A DNA stretch of 64,000 nt, from the NCBI GenBank assembly GCA_013816485.1, contig JACDEI010000001.1, positions 248,001 through 312,000 of the forward strand. Reading direction: 5' to 3'. Both the position numbers and the translations under genes were made by a program. This document shows, piece after piece, positions 4,164 through 42,306 of the stretch. The stretch is from Planctomycetota bacterium. Its GTDB lineage: Bacteria > Planctomycetota > UBA11346. The notes below the pieces were generated by a model. The model was not told the DNA's origin and did no database searches. It worked only from the letters and a program-made list of their open reading frames with translations. How positions within the stretch are numbered: position 1 is the first letter of the stretch; each line of letters begins with the position of its first letter.

Positions 4164-4946
4164 TCACGCCATTCGGTCGAGGACGTCAAGCAGTTCGCGC
4201 AGCTGCAGGATCTCAGCGTCCGGACCACAACGGTCGAGCGCGTCCTGGGAGTAGATGTTCTCCGTGACGCGCAGGCACGTGCGCATTCCATGCGCTCGCG
4301 CGCCTTCGATGTCTCTCAGCGGGTGGTCGCCGACGTGCAGCACACGGTCGGGGGTCTCACCCGCTTGGTCGAGCGCGTGCTGGAAATGACGTGGATGCGG
4401 TTTGATCCAGCCGACCTCGCAACTGAGGCTGTAAAAATCGATGTAGCCGGCCAAGCCGTGACGGTGGAACCATTCCCGGCAGGCATCGCCCGGCCAGGGT
4501 GTGTGCGAGAGAATGCCGATGCGGTACCCGCGCGCCTTGAGCATGCTCAAGGCCGGACCGCTGTCGCCGTAGGGAATGACGGTATCGGTCAGGCGTGCCG
4601 TGCAGCGCGTGACCGCTTGGCGGACGCGGTGCTGGTCGCAGTCCATCCCGCCCGCCGCCGCGACCCAGCCACTCAGCATGGCGGCGAAATCGAACTCCTT
4701 GTGCTCGGGATTCTGCTGCGGATCGATCGAACGCCGCCAATCACCGGACAGATCCGCCATCGCCTGCTCGGCGAAGGCCGCGGGTACCACGGCACAGCCG
4801 AGTGTGGCGAGATCCTGTGCCAGACGTTCAAATGCCCGGCGCTGGGTGACCAGGTAGGGCATTCCATGGTTGGCGGCGAGGGTGTCACCCCAATCCAGGG
4901 TGACGGTGGTGATGCGTCGGGTGGCGGCCATGCCATGCAGTCTCAA
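4164..4946 (-). CDS. HAD-superfamily hydrolase
   Basis: A 260-residue protein with the four HAD motifs: I, TLDWGDTL near the N terminus with the nucleophile Asp; II, ILSHTPWPG with the Thr; III, the Lys in VGWIKPHPRHF; IV, VLHVGDHPLRDIEGA with the acidic GDxxxxD. Motif I reads DWGDT rather than the usual DxDGT, so the general acid/base Asp is shifted by one place; related HAD groups show this variant. The long segment between motifs I and II is a helical cap. The product is probably a small-molecule phosphatase or dehalogenase-like enzyme. The gene ends directly against the convergent AraC gene. An ATG at 4,931 is possible. Confidence 0.8.
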   Translation of the reverse strand: MRLHGMAATRRITTVTLDWGDTLAANHGMPYLVTQRRAFERLAQDLATLGCAVVPAAFAEQAMADLSGDWRRSIDPQQNPEHKEFDFAAMLSGWVAAAGGMDCDQHRVRQAVTRCTARLTDTVIPYGDSGPALSMLKARGYRIGILSHTPWPGDACREWFHRHGLAGYIDFYSLSCEVGWIKPHPRHFQHALDQAGETPDRVLHVGDHPLRDIEGARAHGMRTCLRVTENIYSQDALDRCGPDAEILQLRELLDVLDRMA

Positions 4947-5011
4947 TCGCTGAGAGGCGGACGAAACGGAAAAGGTCTGCCTTCCTCAGGAACCACGGGA
5001 TAGTCGCAGGG

Positions 5012-5551
5012 ATGGCCGAAGCGGACGCGGAACTGGTTAGACGTGCCCTGGCGGGTGATCGCAGCGCTTTCGAGGCGCTGGTATCGCTCCACCTGCAGCG
5101 CGCGCGCGCCGTCGCGCGCGGTGTCCTCGGCAATGATCAGGCGGTCGATGACGCGGTGCAGGAATCGTTCATGCGCGCCTACAACCACCTGGGGCAGCTC
5201 GGTGATCCGGGAACTTTTCCCGCCTGGCTCTGCACCATCGTGCGCAACGAAGCAGTCACCTGGCTTAGGCGCAACGCCCGCGTGCGCAGCGTCGATGACG
5301 AGCAGCTCAAAGAGATCGCGCAGCGCGAAGTGGAGGGTGAGAATCCTCTGCTCGAACGCCTGCGTACCTCGCTCAAACGCATTCCGCCGCAGTACCGTGA
5401 GATCCTGGCGCTGAAGTACGAGGCCGGCCTGGACTACGACCGCATCGCCGAATCGCTCGGCATCAGCGTGCCGAATGTCGAGAAGCGGCTCTACCGTGCG
5501 CGGCAGGCGTTGCTGGCGCTGATGCCGGAACTGGGCGCGCCGCCGGAATAG
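5012..5551 (+). CDS. RNA polymerase ECF-type sigma factor
   Basis: A 179-residue sigma-70 family protein of the extracytoplasmic-function type. Region 2 (about residues 20-85) includes DDAVQESFMRAYNHL and GTFPAWLCTIVRNEAVTWLRR. Region 4 (about 120-172) includes LKRIPPQYREILALKYEAGLDYDRIAE and a helix-turn-helix ending SVPNVEKRLYRARQAL. No anti-sigma gene follows: a 91-bp tandem array starts at the stop codon and the next gene is on the other strand. If it is controlled by an anti-sigma factor, that gene is elsewhere. Confidence 0.92.
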   Translation: MAEADAELVRRALAGDRSAFEALVSLHLQRARAVARGVLGNDQAVDDAVQESFMRAYNHLGQLGDPGTFPAWLCTIVRNEAVTWLRRNARVRSVDDEQLKEIAQREVEGENPLLERLRTSLKRIPPQYREILALKYEAGLDYDRIAESLGISVPNVEKRLYRARQALLALMPELGAPPE

Positions 5552-5641
5552 CTTCGAGCTTCGAGCTTCGAGCTTCGAGCTTCGAGCTTCGAGCTTCGAG
5601 CTTCGAGCTTCGAGCTTCGAGCTTCGAGCTTCGAGCTTCGA
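5551..5641. repeat. Tandem heptamer array, GCTTCGA x13
   Basis: Thirteen perfect head-to-tail copies of GCTTCGA. The first base of the array is the last base of the sigma-factor stop codon. The unit contains the self-complementary steps AGCT and TCGA, so the array can fold on itself. No inverted partner array is seen nearby. Confidence 0.95.
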
Positions 5642-5699
5642 AAATGCGCACGTACGTGAGCCGAGGATCAAATCGCAGTTTGAAGGTGGTAGCTCGCAG

Positions 5700-6335
5700 C
5701 TACTCCGCCGGAGGCGGAGTCTTCCCCAGCAGCTTGGCAATGTTCGAGCGGTGGCGCACGATCACCAGCGTGGCAACCAAGAACAGGAAGATCGTCAACG
5801 GCAGGTTGAGCAGCGCCCACGGTTGCGGGAAGGTTGCGAGGTGGGCGAACGGCATCGCCAGTGCGGCGATCACCGATGCCGGTCCGACCGCGTCGCTGGC
5901 CTTAAGGCGGAAGACCGTGTAGCAGACCGCCCACACCAGCAGCCAGATGCCGAAGGTGATGGCGGCCGCGAGGTAGACCAGCCCGATGAGCACGCCCAGC
6001 GATGTGGCCACCGCCTTGCCGCCCTTGAAGCCGTGGAAGCAGGTGAAGCTGTGGCCCAGGATCGCACAGGCGGCGGTGAGCACCGGCAACGTCCCATGGG
6101 CGTGACCGGACTCGACCAGGGCTAGCGCAACCAGCACCGGCAGCAGGCCCTTCGCCAGATCGGCGCTGAAGATGATGAAGAACCACTTGCGGCCCAGCAC
6201 CCGTCCGGCGTTGGTCGCTCCTAGATTGCCCGAGCCGTGGCTCCGTAGATCGATGCCCTTCGCGCGGGCTGCCAGCCAAGCGAAGCTGACCGAACCGAAT
6301 AGGTAGGTGACGGGCAGCAACAGCCAACTCAGCAT
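5700..6335 (-). CDS. plsY: Glycerol-3-phosphate acyltransferase PlsY
   Basis: PlsY transfers the acyl group of acyl-phosphate to glycerol-3-phosphate, the first step of membrane phospholipid synthesis. The 211-residue integral membrane protein has the three family motifs: SGNLGATNAGR (about residues 35-45), GHSFTCFHGFKGGKAVAT (about 93-110) and the C-terminal VIVRHRSNIAKLLG. Five to six hydrophobic helices separate them. The acyl-phosphate donor is made by PlsX, whose gene is at 34.1-35.1 kb in this window, so both halves of the PlsX/PlsY route are present. The gene lies downstream of der on the same strand, about 33 bases from it. Confidence 0.95.
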   Translation of the reverse strand: MLSWLLLPVTYLFGSVSFAWLAARAKGIDLRSHGSGNLGATNAGRVLGRKWFFIIFSADLAKGLLPVLVALALVESGHAHGTLPVLTAACAILGHSFTCFHGFKGGKAVATSLGVLIGLVYLAAAITFGIWLLVWAVCYTVFRLKASDAVGPASVIAALAMPFAHLATFPQPWALLNLPLTIFLFLVATLVIVRHRSNIAKLLGKTPPPAE

Positions 6336-37585: not shown

Positions 37586-37762
37586 GGCGGGAAGTCGCAG
37601 GCACCTCGTCGCATGACGGGAGTCACGCGGTGCCTCACCATCGGTGGCTAGTCCTTGGCACCCCCGCGTTTCAGACACGGCACGTGTACGTGTTTCGCCG
37701 TGCGGCTCTTGAGTCGCTCAGGCGCTGCGGATGATCCGCAGCCAGATCGGGAGGGACCAGTC

Positions 37763-38113
37763 ATGCCATTCTTCTCGCGTCGCCATGTCTCCCAGCCGCA
37801 AGAACGCCAACCGGCTCCGCCGATCCCGCCTCCCGAGGATCCCACGCCAGCAGTTGGCCACGCCGTCAATCCGCTCAGTCGTGCGGTGTTGCCGAAGGAA
37901 CAGTTCCCGCTCCATTTCGATTTGCTGATGCGTGACTTGTGGGATCGCGGCATGTCGCCCGAAGCCTTCCAGGTCATCGCCGCTGATGAGGTCCGTCTGG
38001 ATGAGGACGGCATGGATGTGGAGTTCACCTTGCTGCGTGTCGGCACCGACTCGCTCTGGCGACGTCGCGTCGACGTGCGTCATGGCCGTCTGCTCAGCAT
38101 CCGCGACTGTTGA
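37763..38113 (+). CDS. Small protein of unknown function
   Basis: A 116-residue protein. After MPFFSRRHV comes a Pro/Gln-rich stretch (about residues 10-38), then a compact acidic domain (FDLLMRDLWDRGMSPEAFQVIAADEVRLDEDGMDVEFTLLRVG) that I do not recognise. The start at 37,763 has GGGAGGGA upstream, one of the better ribosome sites in this window. The stop codon is part of an 11-bp tandem repeat. Confidence 0.7.
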   Translation: MPFFSRRHVSQPQERQPAPPIPPPEDPTPAVGHAVNPLSRAVLPKEQFPLHFDLLMRDLWDRGMSPEAFQVIAADEVRLDEDGMDVEFTLLRVGTDSLWRRRVDVRHGRLLSIRDC

Positions 38114-38146
38114 GCGACTGTTGAGCGACTGTTGAGCGACTGTTGA
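38103..38146. repeat. Tandem 11-mer array, GCGACTGTTGA x4
   Basis: Four perfect copies. The first covers the last codons and the TGA stop of the small gene at 37,763-38,113, and each further copy repeats that TGA. The nadD gene (convergent) ends 19 bases later. Confidence 0.93.
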
Positions 38147-38164
38147 GCCACCGCGTTTCGCGGT

Positions 38165-38728
38165 TCAGCGATACCAGTTCTGGCCCGCGATGAGGTCCGC
38201 CACCGCTGGTGGAACCAGCGCGGCGATGTCCTCGCCTCGTCCCAGGCGTTCGCGGATGAGTGAACTGGAGATCTGCGGCAAGGCCGCGGGATGCTCGTCA
38301 TAACCGCGGCGCGGCACCGGGATGATCCCGATCAGACGGATGAGTTCCGCCCCACGGTGCCAGTTCAGCAGATCGTGCGCAGTATCGGTACCGCCTACCA
38401 ACAACCACTGGTTCAGCGGATGCCGCTGCCGCAGACGTTCGATCAGGTCGAAGGTGTAGCCGCTGGCATTGCTGCGTTCGTCGTCGCACAGGCGCACGAA
38501 CGGTAGCGCAGCGAATGCGGCCTGGCACAGCCGCCAGCGTTGCTCCCACGATGAGATCGCCTTGCCATAGGCGTGTTTCGCCACCGGCAGCACCCACACC
38601 TCATCGACTCCGCCGACCACGCGGGCGTAACAGGCAGCGAGCACGTGCCCGAGGTGCGGGGGATCGAATGATCCCCCGAACAGGGCGATGCGCGGAGCGC
38701 CCAGGTCCGGTCCGGTGGCGGTGGTCAT
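38165..38728 (-). CDS. nadD: Nicotinate-nucleotide adenylyltransferase NadD
   Basis: Joins AMP to nicotinate mononucleotide in NAD synthesis. The 187-residue protein has the nucleotidyltransferase start ALFGGSFDPPHLGHV (with the HxGH motif), WVLPVAKHAYGK, LLVGGTDTAHDLLNW and, near the C terminus, ISSSLIRERLGRG, the ISSTxIR-type motif. The usual neighbours obgE and rsfS are not here. It is followed by a gene for a membrane protein upstream on the same strand. Confidence 0.95.
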   Translation of the reverse strand: MTTATGPDLGAPRIALFGGSFDPPHLGHVLAACYARVVGGVDEVWVLPVAKHAYGKAISSWEQRWRLCQAAFAALPFVRLCDDERSNASGYTFDLIERLRQRHPLNQWLLVGGTDTAHDLLNWHRGAELIRLIGIIPVPRRGYDEHPAALPQISSSLIRERLGRGEDIAALVPPAVADLIAGQNWYR

Positions 38729-38772: not shown

Positions 38773-40308
38773 TTACTTGCCAGGCTTTTGCGGCGTGGGC
38801 GGCGTGGACGGCGGAGTGACCTTGCCTTCGACGTATCTGATCAGGTCACCGATGGTCGTGAGTTCCCGCTCCTCATCCAGTTTCACGCTGAAGGCGTCCT
38901 CGAGATCCATCAGGAGTTCGGCGATGTCGAGTTCATCGGCCTTGAGGTCGGCCGTGAGTCGACTGCCGTCGTTGAGGGTCGCCGGGTCGCGAGCCAGACG
39001 CTCGGCGATGACCGCGATGACCGCGGTGCGGACATCACCCGCTGCCACGGCCTGCTGCACGGCAGGGGAGGTGGCCGGGGTTTTGGGCATGGGCTGGCGA
39101 GCGCGCCACTCGGCATATTCCTTGGACTGTCCGAACCGCTCGAATCCGGAAATGGTGCTGAGGTCGTCGGCTAATTTGGTACCGAAACGTGTCTTGACCT
39201 CATCGAGCAGCGAGGCGGCCTGGGCGTGGGCGTCGGCTTTGAGTGAGACCCCGATCGCGGTCCACCACAGATCGATCAGCGTTGGCTCGCGTTCGCAGCC
39301 CCGCGCGGCCGCGGCCTGGGCTTCGGCAATCCGCTCCGCTTCGATGAGGATGTCGGCGCGCAACGAATCGAGGTACGGATCGCCGCCAACCTGTTCGTCG
39401 ACGCGATCGATGGCCTGCAACGCCTGCGGATACCGTTTGGTCAAACGATTGGCATCAACCTGTAGCAACGACAATGCCGGGTCATTGGGGAACAGGCGCT
39501 CGATCTCCTGCAAGGACGCCAAGTGTTCGGCCGGACCGATCCCCTGGGCGATCAGCATGCGCAGTGCAGCACCAGCACGGGTGGTACGGAAGGCTTCTGG
39601 CAAGGTGCGCCAGCGCTCCATCGCCTGTTGGTGTTTGCCCTCCTCGATCAATTTGCGGAGCTCGGGGACCTGGCCCACGCTGGCGACGTAGCCGTCGCCT
39701 GAACCCTGCATCAGTCGTTCGAGCGGCGTGCGGGTCAGGCTGGCGAGGGCAGGCATCACCACGCTGGTGATCGAGCGGCTGAGGGGTTCGCCGGTGGCCA
39801 TGTCCTGGTAATCGACCACTCGGATGGCTCCCGCCGGCGTGCGGACGATGGTGAGATCAAGGTAGTTGAGCCCATCGCCGACCAGCATGCGCAGTTGCGC
39901 CCGTTGGTGGCCATCGACCAGACGGATGCGCAGCAGCTTGACCCGGCCTTCTTCCCCGAGCGCGGCGATCCAGCGATTGGGGATGTCCTTCGCTCCGCTC
40001 ATGGCGCCGCTGAGGAAGTTGCTCCGCTCGAAATCGCTCAACGGTACCTGATGGATCGCTTCGCCGAACAGGGTTTGGAGGTCGAACACGGCATGGACCG
40101 GATCGGGATCCAGTTCATTGAAACCATCGACCACAATTTGCGCGATTTTCTGCGCCTCAGCCGCGCTCACCTGAGTGCAGGCGGCGATCGGCGAGGGGAT
40201 CGCGTGGCGATTGCGCAGCAGATTCGCGACATTCCCTTTGAGGAAGAACATCGCTCCGCCAGCCGCCACGGCGGCGACGATGAGGATGACGAAGAGGACT
40301 TGTTTCAT
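38773..40308 (-). CDS. Membrane-anchored helical-repeat protein with a C-terminal acyl-carrier-like domain
   Basis: A 511-residue protein. An N-terminal hydrophobic helix (LFVILIVAAVAAGGAMFFL) anchors or exports it. Residues 40-185 are a mixed domain, and 190-420 look like TPR-type helical repeats. Residues 429-497 resemble acyl carrier protein: AVIAERLARDPATLN, LTADLKADELDIAELLMDLEDAF, then ELTTIGDLIRYVE. In true ACPs the block reads DSL, with Ser carrying phosphopantetheine; here it is DEL (Glu459). So the fold is likely kept while acyl carrying is lost. A Pro-rich tail ends the protein. It may be an adaptor that binds partners of ACP or its own repeats. The function is unknown. Confidence 0.75.
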   Translation of the reverse strand: MKQVLFVILIVAAVAAGGAMFFLKGNVANLLRNRHAIPSPIAACTQVSAAEAQKIAQIVVDGFNELDPDPVHAVFDLQTLFGEAIHQVPLSDFERSNFLSGAMSGAKDIPNRWIAALGEEGRVKLLRIRLVDGHQRAQLRMLVGDGLNYLDLTIVRTPAGAIRVVDYQDMATGEPLSRSITSVVMPALASLTRTPLERLMQGSGDGYVASVGQVPELRKLIEEGKHQQAMERWRTLPEAFRTTRAGAALRMLIAQGIGPAEHLASLQEIERLFPNDPALSLLQVDANRLTKRYPQALQAIDRVDEQVGGDPYLDSLRADILIEAERIAEAQAAAARGCEREPTLIDLWWTAIGVSLKADAHAQAASLLDEVKTRFGTKLADDLSTISGFERFGQSKEYAEWRARQPMPKTPATSPAVQQAVAAGDVRTAVIAVIAERLARDPATLNDGSRLTADLKADELDIAELLMDLEDAFSVKLDEERELTTIGDLIRYVEGKVTPPSTPPTPQKPGK

Positions 40309-40449: not shown

Positions 40450-42306
40450 CTATTCGGTTTCAGCCCGCGACTTCAGTACCGCCATGAAGGCCTCCTGCGG
40501 AACTTCGACGTTGCCGATCATCTTCATGCGCTTCTTGCCCTCTTTTTGCTTTTCGAGGAGTTTGCGCTTACGTGACACGTCGCCGCCGTAGCACTTGGCG
40601 GTGACGTTCTTGCCGATGCTCTTGATGGTCTCGCGCGCGACCACACGAGTGCCGATGGTGGCCTGCAAAGCGACCTCAAAGAGGTGTTTGGGAATCTCTT
40701 CCTTGAGCGCCTTGATGATCTGTCGGCCGCGGAACTCGGCATTGGTCTTGTGGCAGATGAAGGCCAGCGCATCGCAGGGATTGTTGTGCACCAGGATGTC
40801 GACGCGCACCAGGTCAGCGACCTGGTAGCCGGTGAATTCGTAATCCATGGTGCCGTAGCCCTGGGTCACGCTCTTCAGCTTGTCGAAGAGATCGTAGATC
40901 ACTTCGGCGAGCGGCATCTTGTAGGTCAGCACGCAGCGCTGGGTGCCCAGGTATTCCTGCTTGAGGAATTCACCGCGACGGTCAGACACCAGCGACATCA
41001 CGGAGCCGATCTTGTCTGCCGGCAGCATGAAATGGATGGTCACCAGCGGTTCTTCGATCGATTCGTAACCATCACGGGGCAACTCGCCTGGCGTGGTGAT
41101 CTCAATCGAACGCGGGATCACCGAACCGTCTTTTTCGTAGAGGGGCGCGGCGGAGGCCGCACGCAGATTGACCACATAGGTCACGGTTGGCGCGGTCTGC
41201 ACCATGTCGAGATCGTGCTCGCGCTCCAAGCGTTCCTGGCAGATCTCCATGTGCAGCATGCCCAGGAAGCCGCAGCGGAAACCGTGGCCGAGCGCGCCGC
41301 CTGATTCGGGCGACCAGCGGAACGACGCGTCGTTGAGCGAAAATTTTTCGACCGCTTCACGCAGCTGGTCGTAGGTGGTTTCGCCCGACGGATACAGGCC
41401 GCAATACACCATCGGCTTCATCTCACGGAAGCCCGCGAGCGGCTCCGCTTGGTTGTCTTCCAAGGTGATGGTGTCGCCAACCTTCACATCGGTGAGGGCC
41501 TTGATCGCCGCGCAGATGTAACCGACCTCGCCTGCCTCCAGGCCGTCATCAGCGGCAGTCATGCGTGGCTTCAGGCGGCCGATCTCGCTGATCTCGTAGG
41601 TTTTCCCCGAGCGAATCAGGCGGATCTTGTCGCCCTTCTTGAGTCGACCGTTCTTGATCCGCGCGTACAGGATGATGCCGCGGTAGTCGTCGTAGATCGC
41701 ATCGAAGATCAGCGCCTGCGTCGGCGCGCTGCGATCGCCCACCGGCGAGGGGATGCGCTCCACCACCGCGGTGAGGATTTCTTGGATGCCGATGCCCTGC
41801 TTAGCGCTCGCGCGGATGGCGAAGGTGGCATCGAGCGCGAGGGATTCCTCGATCTCAGCACACACGCGATCGGGCTGCGCGCTGGGCAGGTCGATCTTGT
41901 TGAGCGTCGGGATGACCGTCAGGTTCAGCTCACACGACAGCAGGTAGTTCGCGACGGTCTGCGCTTGGACGCCTTGCGAGGCATCGACCACCAGCAGACA
42001 GCCTTCGCAGGCTTGGAGCGAACGCGACACTTCGTAGCTGAAGTCGACGTGCCCAGGGGTGTCGATGAGGTTGAGCTGGTAGGTCTGCCCGTCGGTGTGC
42101 AGGTACGACAGGCTGACGGCCTTGGCCTTGATGGTGATGCCGCGCTCTCGCTCCAGGTCCATGCTGTCGAGGACTTCCAGCTCCTTGTCGTCCTTGGCTT
42201 TCATCGCGCCGGTGGCCTGGAGCAGGCGTTCCGCGAGAGTCGACTTGCCATGATCGATGTGGGCGATGATGCAGAAGTTACGAATCAGATGCTGGGGGTG
42301 CGGCAT
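40450..42306 (-). CDS. lepA: Elongation factor 4 (LepA)
   Basis: The ribosome-associated GTPase LepA/EF4. The 618-residue protein has the G domain with AHIDHGKSTLAERLL, RERGITIKAKAVSL, DTPGHVDFSYEVSR and LNKIDLPSA, then domain II, EF-G-like domains III and V, and the LepA-specific C-terminal domain with GRQIIKALKEEIPKHLFEV and GGDVSRKRKLLEKQKEGKKRMK. The length and motif set are normal. Confidence 0.97.
   Translation of the reverse strand: MPHPQHLIRNFCIIAHIDHGKSTLAERLLQATGAMKAKDDKELEVLDSMDLERERGITIKAKAVSLSYLHTDGQTYQLNLIDTPGHVDFSYEVSRSLQACEGCLLVVDASQGVQAQTVANYLLSCELNLTVIPTLNKIDLPSAQPDRVCAEIEESLALDATFAIRASAKQGIGIQEILTAVVERIPSPVGDRSAPTQALIFDAIYDDYRGIILYARIKNGRLKKGDKIRLIRSGKTYEISEIGRLKPRMTAADDGLEAGEVGYICAAIKALTDVKVGDTITLEDNQAEPLAGFREMKPMVYCGLYPSGETTYDQLREAVEKFSLNDASFRWSPESGGALGHGFRCGFLGMLHMEICQERLEREHDLDMVQTAPTVTYVVNLRAASAAPLYEKDGSVIPRSIEITTPGELPRDGYESIEEPLVTIHFMLPADKIGSVMSLVSDRRGEFLKQEYLGTQRCVLTYKMPLAEVIYDLFDKLKSVTQGYGTMDYEFTGYQVADLVRVDILVHNNPCDALAFICHKTNAEFRGRQIIKALKEEIPKHLFEVALQATIGTRVVARETIKSIGKNVTAKCYGGDVSRKRKLLEKQKEGKKRMKMIGNVEVPQEAFMAVLKSRAETE

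Follow-up and report, generated by a model that had tools for sequence, protein, structure and literature searches.

What is a carrier-protein fold doing at the end of a membrane-anchored repeat protein when it lacks the serine to which phosphopantetheine is attached, and where did it come from? These are the questions raised by the gene described here, which lies in a window (the whole stretch of DNA analysed) of 64,000 nucleotides from a Planctomycetota bacterium and encodes a protein of 511 amino acids, named protein X.

Layout of the gene and its neighbours

The gene is located between lepA and nadD, and the following features, all on the minus strand, were distinguished:

40450..42306, minus strand: lepA, upstream neighbour, separated by 141 bp from the protein X gene; synteny anchor
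38773..40308, minus strand: protein X, 511 aa, with an N-terminal membrane helix, an alpha/beta domain, TPR repeats and a C-terminal serine-less acyl carrier protein (ACP) domain
40237..40305, minus strand: N-terminal hydrophobic helix, residues ~2-24, a probable signal anchor (Kyte-Doolittle; AlphaFold)
39076..40236, minus strand: region conserved in the X family, residues ~25-411, alpha/beta part followed by TPR part (alignments)
38818..39039, minus strand: ACP-like domain, residues 424-497 (profiles, PDB, identity to the genome's own AcpP, model)
38932..38934, minus strand: codon GAA for Glu459, where the own acpP has AGC for the phosphopantetheine serine (codon comparison)
38773..38817, minus strand: C-terminal tail TPPSTPPTPQKPGK, rich in proline, which follows the ACP domain, with the stop codon (sequence)
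38165..38728, minus strand: nadD, downstream neighbour, separated by 44 bp from the protein X gene; synteny anchor

The coordinates, length and motifs given in the initial annotation proved exact (511 aa; residues 429-497 at 39024-38818; the DSL site as D458-E459-L460). The middle of the protein is made up of TPR repeats. Residues ~25-411 contain the VGGDPYLD motif, which is invariant in the X family, and near their end the sequence SKEYAEW, which corresponds to the natural C-terminus of the X relatives. Downstream of nadD, a small ORF (37655-38113, plus strand, 152 aa) has no Pfam match and is conserved beside nadD in the same-genus genome G004 (60% over 120 aa). About four near-perfect tandem copies of the short unit CTGTTGAGCGA are located at 38104-38150, between this ORF and the end of nadD.

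Identification of the ACP domain

In order to evaluate the proposed resemblance to ACP, the C-terminal domain was compared with profiles, solved structures and structure models. The Pfam PP-binding profile (PF00550) matched it with 22.8 bits, above the curated cut-off of 20.8. The NCBIfam ACP models NF002150 (E=1.4e-15, 57.3 bits, against a naming cut-off of 66 bits) and TIGR00517 (E=3.1e-13) also matched, both below their naming cut-offs, and in a sequence search of the PDB, solved ACPs matched from E=5.9e-11. The AlphaFold2 model of the isolated domain reached a pLDDT of 84.6, with an input alignment consisting of 31 ACPs from viral contigs and hence leaning towards the ACP fold; these rows were obtained by an alignment-based search, a first search of viral contigs having given none. 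The model superimposed on solved ACPs with an rmsd of mostly 1.0-1.6 A and target-normalised TM scores of 0.81-0.91 (about 1.2 A for the Thermotoga apo-ACP), and all the matches listed by Foldseek were ACPs. Moreover, the full-length AlphaFold model, computed from an alignment without any ACP, still placed helices at 426-440, 462-473 and 486-496. Judged by homology and predicted fold, residues ~424-497 are thus a genuine ACP domain, with a match far beyond chance, and both the domain assignment and the ACP-like structure anticipated for it were borne out.

Loss of the attachment serine

The position of the serine in the D-S-L motif is occupied by Glu459. Its codon, GAA at 38934-38932, differs at all three bases from the AGC of the own acpP, and the reported loss of the serine is confirmed. 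No Ser or Thr able to substitute for it was found near the site in the helix-II start KADELDIAELLMDLEDAF. For this reason the domain is not classed as a carrier protein, and the best reading of the sequence is that it would be unable to act as a canonical carrier. The genome encodes two genes of the PPTase family. Literature searches turned up no natural serine-less ACP, although this does not prove that none exists.

A second serine-less ACP in the lineage

The same analysis revealed a stand-alone serine-less ACP paralogue of roughly 90-110 aa, named acpX, which immediately follows acpP-fabF in 20 of the 23 genomes of one Planctomycetota family (18 read at the locus, and G007 and G018 by profile search). 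Neither acpP nor acpX was found in G002 and G020, and the G015 contig breaks off beside acpP, leaving the acpX site uncovered. One representative, outside the window, is:

C50:82784-83056, minus strand: acpX of G000 (L096 2255-2632)

Further acpX loci are L097-L111, L113, L114, L126 and L132. The serine position of acpX holds Pro, His, Gln, Glu or Asp, and Ser in none of the 20, while helix II is otherwise nearly invariant (LDIAEVxMDLEDAF). Pfam barely recognises acpX, and the NCBIfam ACP models match it weakly. A wide distribution of serine-less ACPs in the phylum was considered and rejected, as the ten matches read outside the lineage, which were among the strongest, all keep DSL.

Origin of the fused domain

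A normal acpP with an intact DSL, adjoining fabF, is present in the same genome. The fused domain shares 61% amino-acid identity with the product of this gene and 70% DNA identity with the gene itself (69.8% in the codon comparison; dN 0.27, dS 1.0). A tree was built from the fused domain, E. coli AcpP, 20 acpP and 18 acpX. It placed the fused domain on the acpP side of the 100/100 branch that splits acpP from acpX, close to the acpPs of the same genus and its neighbours, the exact position being without support. Taken together, sequence identity and phylogeny show the fused domain to be a diverged duplicate from the acpP clade; they also rule out an origin from the serine-less acpX. Since acpX and the fused domain belong to separate clades, the two serine losses are independent. 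A further possibility, that the duplication carried the 5' flank of acpP into the linker, was rejected, the similarity of the upstream DNA being no higher than that of shuffles.

The host protein and the insertion site

Among the 23 genomes of the bacterial family, to which order- and class-level searches added none, the X gene is present in only two, the window genome and G004. Both have the order lepA-X-nadD, but the X protein of G004 (426 aa) stops after the TPR part and has no ACP domain. In two other genomes of the genus (G003 and G005), lepA directly adjoins nadD, and the same holds for further family members with a readable site. A single-sequence search of genome contigs with the window protein gave no relative, whereas a search with a two-row alignment did find distant ones, scattered over Planctomycetota, Myxococcota and Acidobacteriota (X-family loci L085-L095, L136-L165 and L256-L269). 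The window protein is 38% identical to the G004 copy and 19-37% to other X proteins. It aligns over the body of the family, including VGGDPYLD and the terminal SPEYxxW-like motif, and matches the family profile, which itself includes the window protein, at 2e-140.

The ACP domain was found in none of about 50 X relatives examined by profile search, most of which stop within about 30 residues of the SPEYxxW-like motif. The same architecture, which the initial annotation proposed to look for elsewhere, was thus absent from this set, and the TPR-ACP protein is, so far and as judged from sequence, a novelty of one genome and not a family. Because about 50 relatives all lack the domain, its capture in the window genome is more parsimonious than its loss in G004. 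At one Acidobacteriota locus (L091, Vicinamibacteria), the ORF at 4496-6052 and a second one each encode an X-family TPR protein in which a TonB-type C-terminal domain takes the place of the ACP domain, so that the X C-terminus accepts different fused domains.

An architecture seen in a single draft genome could be produced by an assembly chimera or a sequencing error joining acpP to the X gene. We consider such an artefact hardly credible: at only 70% DNA identity the domain is not a misassembled copy of the own acpP, three changed bases in the serine codon are more than a single sequencing error can explain, G+C and third-position G+C of the domain agree with those of the rest of the gene and of the window, the reading frame is unbroken, and synteny with G004 holds on either side, on a contig of 327 kb.

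Probable conservation of the fold after duplication

The fused domain differs from the own AcpP at 29 of 74 residues. The BLOSUM62 sum of these substitutions is +23, against a neutral mean of -12.7 (sd 9.0), and none of 2000 simulations was as high; in the simulations acpP codons were mutated to the same number of differences, under a simple mutation model and for one sequence pair. As the substitutions are far more conservative than neutral, and dN/dS against the own acpP is 0.27/1.0, the fold appears to have been maintained by selection since the duplication, in so far as this can be read from one pairwise comparison in one draft genome, with no ortholog of the fused domain. The acpP protein hardly changes, which places nearly all of the amino-acid change on the fused branch, and the dN/dS of that branch itself is therefore probably nearer 0.5 than 0.27.

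These data bear on a passive explanation, in which a duplicated acpP was fused by chance and has persisted as a tolerated tail without a role, slowly degrading. The occurrence in one genome only, the lost serine, the long branch of the fused domain (1.05 changes per site) and the sister protein of G004 without the domain are all compatible with it. We nevertheless regard it as rather unlikely, given a reading frame free of stops and frameshifts, a confident structure model of the domain, and substitutions whose conservatism no neutral simulation equalled.

Membrane topology

The claimed N-terminal membrane helix was supported by a hydrophobic segment at residues ~2-24 (Kyte-Doolittle maximum of 2.73 at residue 4), without a lipobox; the full-length AlphaFold model has a helix at 2-32, at low confidence. 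The helix is followed by the positive residues K24, R32 and R34, and by the positive-inside rule an exported C-terminus is not favoured. The relatives point the other way. As judged by eye and not with a prediction program for signal peptides, many of them bear a Sec signal peptide or a lipobox (AVAGC, SVLGC, LLAGC, ILTAC), and in some an N-terminal domain of cytoplasmic type precedes a TM helix. On these grounds the X family is most likely exported, and by extension from its relatives the window protein would be so too. The location outside the cytoplasm suggested by the initial annotation is thus made likely by the secretion signals of the relatives.

If the C-terminus were cytoplasmic, the domain could act as a membrane-tethered, unloadable ACP decoy that recruits or inhibits ACP-binding enzymes (FabF, PlsX, acyltransferases) through its acidic helix-II face. 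The recognition residues of helix II are almost as in the own AcpP (DELDIAELLMDLEDAF vs DSLDIAEIMMDLEDAF), the charge balance around the membrane helix is not in favour of an exported C-terminus, and the lineage keeps a separate serine-less ACP beside fabF, so that unloadable ACPs do occur in its fatty-acid operon. The Sec signals or lipoboxes on many relatives of the TPR part speak against a decoy, as does the position of X outside any fatty-acid operon (lepA-X-nadD), and we consider this explanation improbable.

Proposed mechanism and significance

The reading that we prefer, with a probability of roughly 50%, is that an exported TPR protein acquired acpP as a C-terminal domain, and that this domain lost its serine and kept its acidic four-helix module as a docking surface. 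A copy of acpP would have been joined, within the genus-level lineage, to the 3' end of the X gene, a lineage-variable gene between lepA and nadD that encodes a probably exported TPR protein with a membrane anchor. CoA and phosphopantetheinyl transferase are both absent outside the cytoplasm, and because of this the carrier serine would have been useless there and so lost (AGC to GAA). What would have been retained is the four-helix fold, acidic helix II included, as a small acidic docking module. This module would bind a partner or protein X itself, the TPR part would bind a further one, and protein X would thereby become an extracytoplasmic scaffold. The docking role is what we infer from these observations. 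The stronger formulation, in which export as part of a membrane-anchored TPR protein made an extracytoplasmic protein-binding module out of a fatty-acid carrier protein, is possible, although we put it forward only tentatively. The adaptor interpretation already offered for the domain is plausible, and the case looks like the reuse of a carrier fold as a binding module, known so far from a single genome.

What is new here is the protein context in which a serine-less ACP fold is found, so far in one genome. It offers a clear and fairly recent case in which an essential, cytoplasmic, post-translationally activated protein was captured as a domain, with the defining residue stripped, the fold kept, and the intact parent gene available for comparison in the same genome. 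If the domain is exported, an ACP fold would be working where its own cofactor chemistry cannot exist. Should the stronger reading be true, it would mean, together with acpX, that on two occasions in this lineage an ACP fold gave up the prosthetic group and took on a regulatory or structural role. The conserved serine-less ACP beside fabF is possibly more important than the fused domain, and it makes the role of an unloadable ACP in a fatty-acid operon directly testable.

Comparison with known systems

The fused domain resembles AcpP (TIGR00517/NF002150; PF00550) in sequence (61% to the own AcpP), in its predicted helical fold and in its acidic helix II. It differs in having Glu459 and no attachment serine, and in being carried by a probably exported TPR protein, whereas AcpP is free-standing. 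With acpX it shares the lack of the attachment serine and the same genomes, both being ACP homologues; acpX, however, forms a separate clade (100/100), has an insert near helix I and occurs in 20 genomes, whereas the fused domain comes from the acpP side. As compared with the X family, residues ~25-411 of the window protein align over most of the length of the relatives, but among the members read the ACP domain is present only in the window protein, and a TonB C-terminal domain at L091. A precedent for ACP binding independent of phosphopantetheine is provided by MukB, the ATPase of which is stimulated comparably by apo- and holo-AcpP (PMC8602292). In both cases an ACP fold would serve as a protein ligand with no need of phosphopantetheine, the binding being proposed in ours; MukB, however, uses the ordinary, loadable, cytoplasmic AcpP, whereas the domain described here is serine-less and covalently fused to its host protein.
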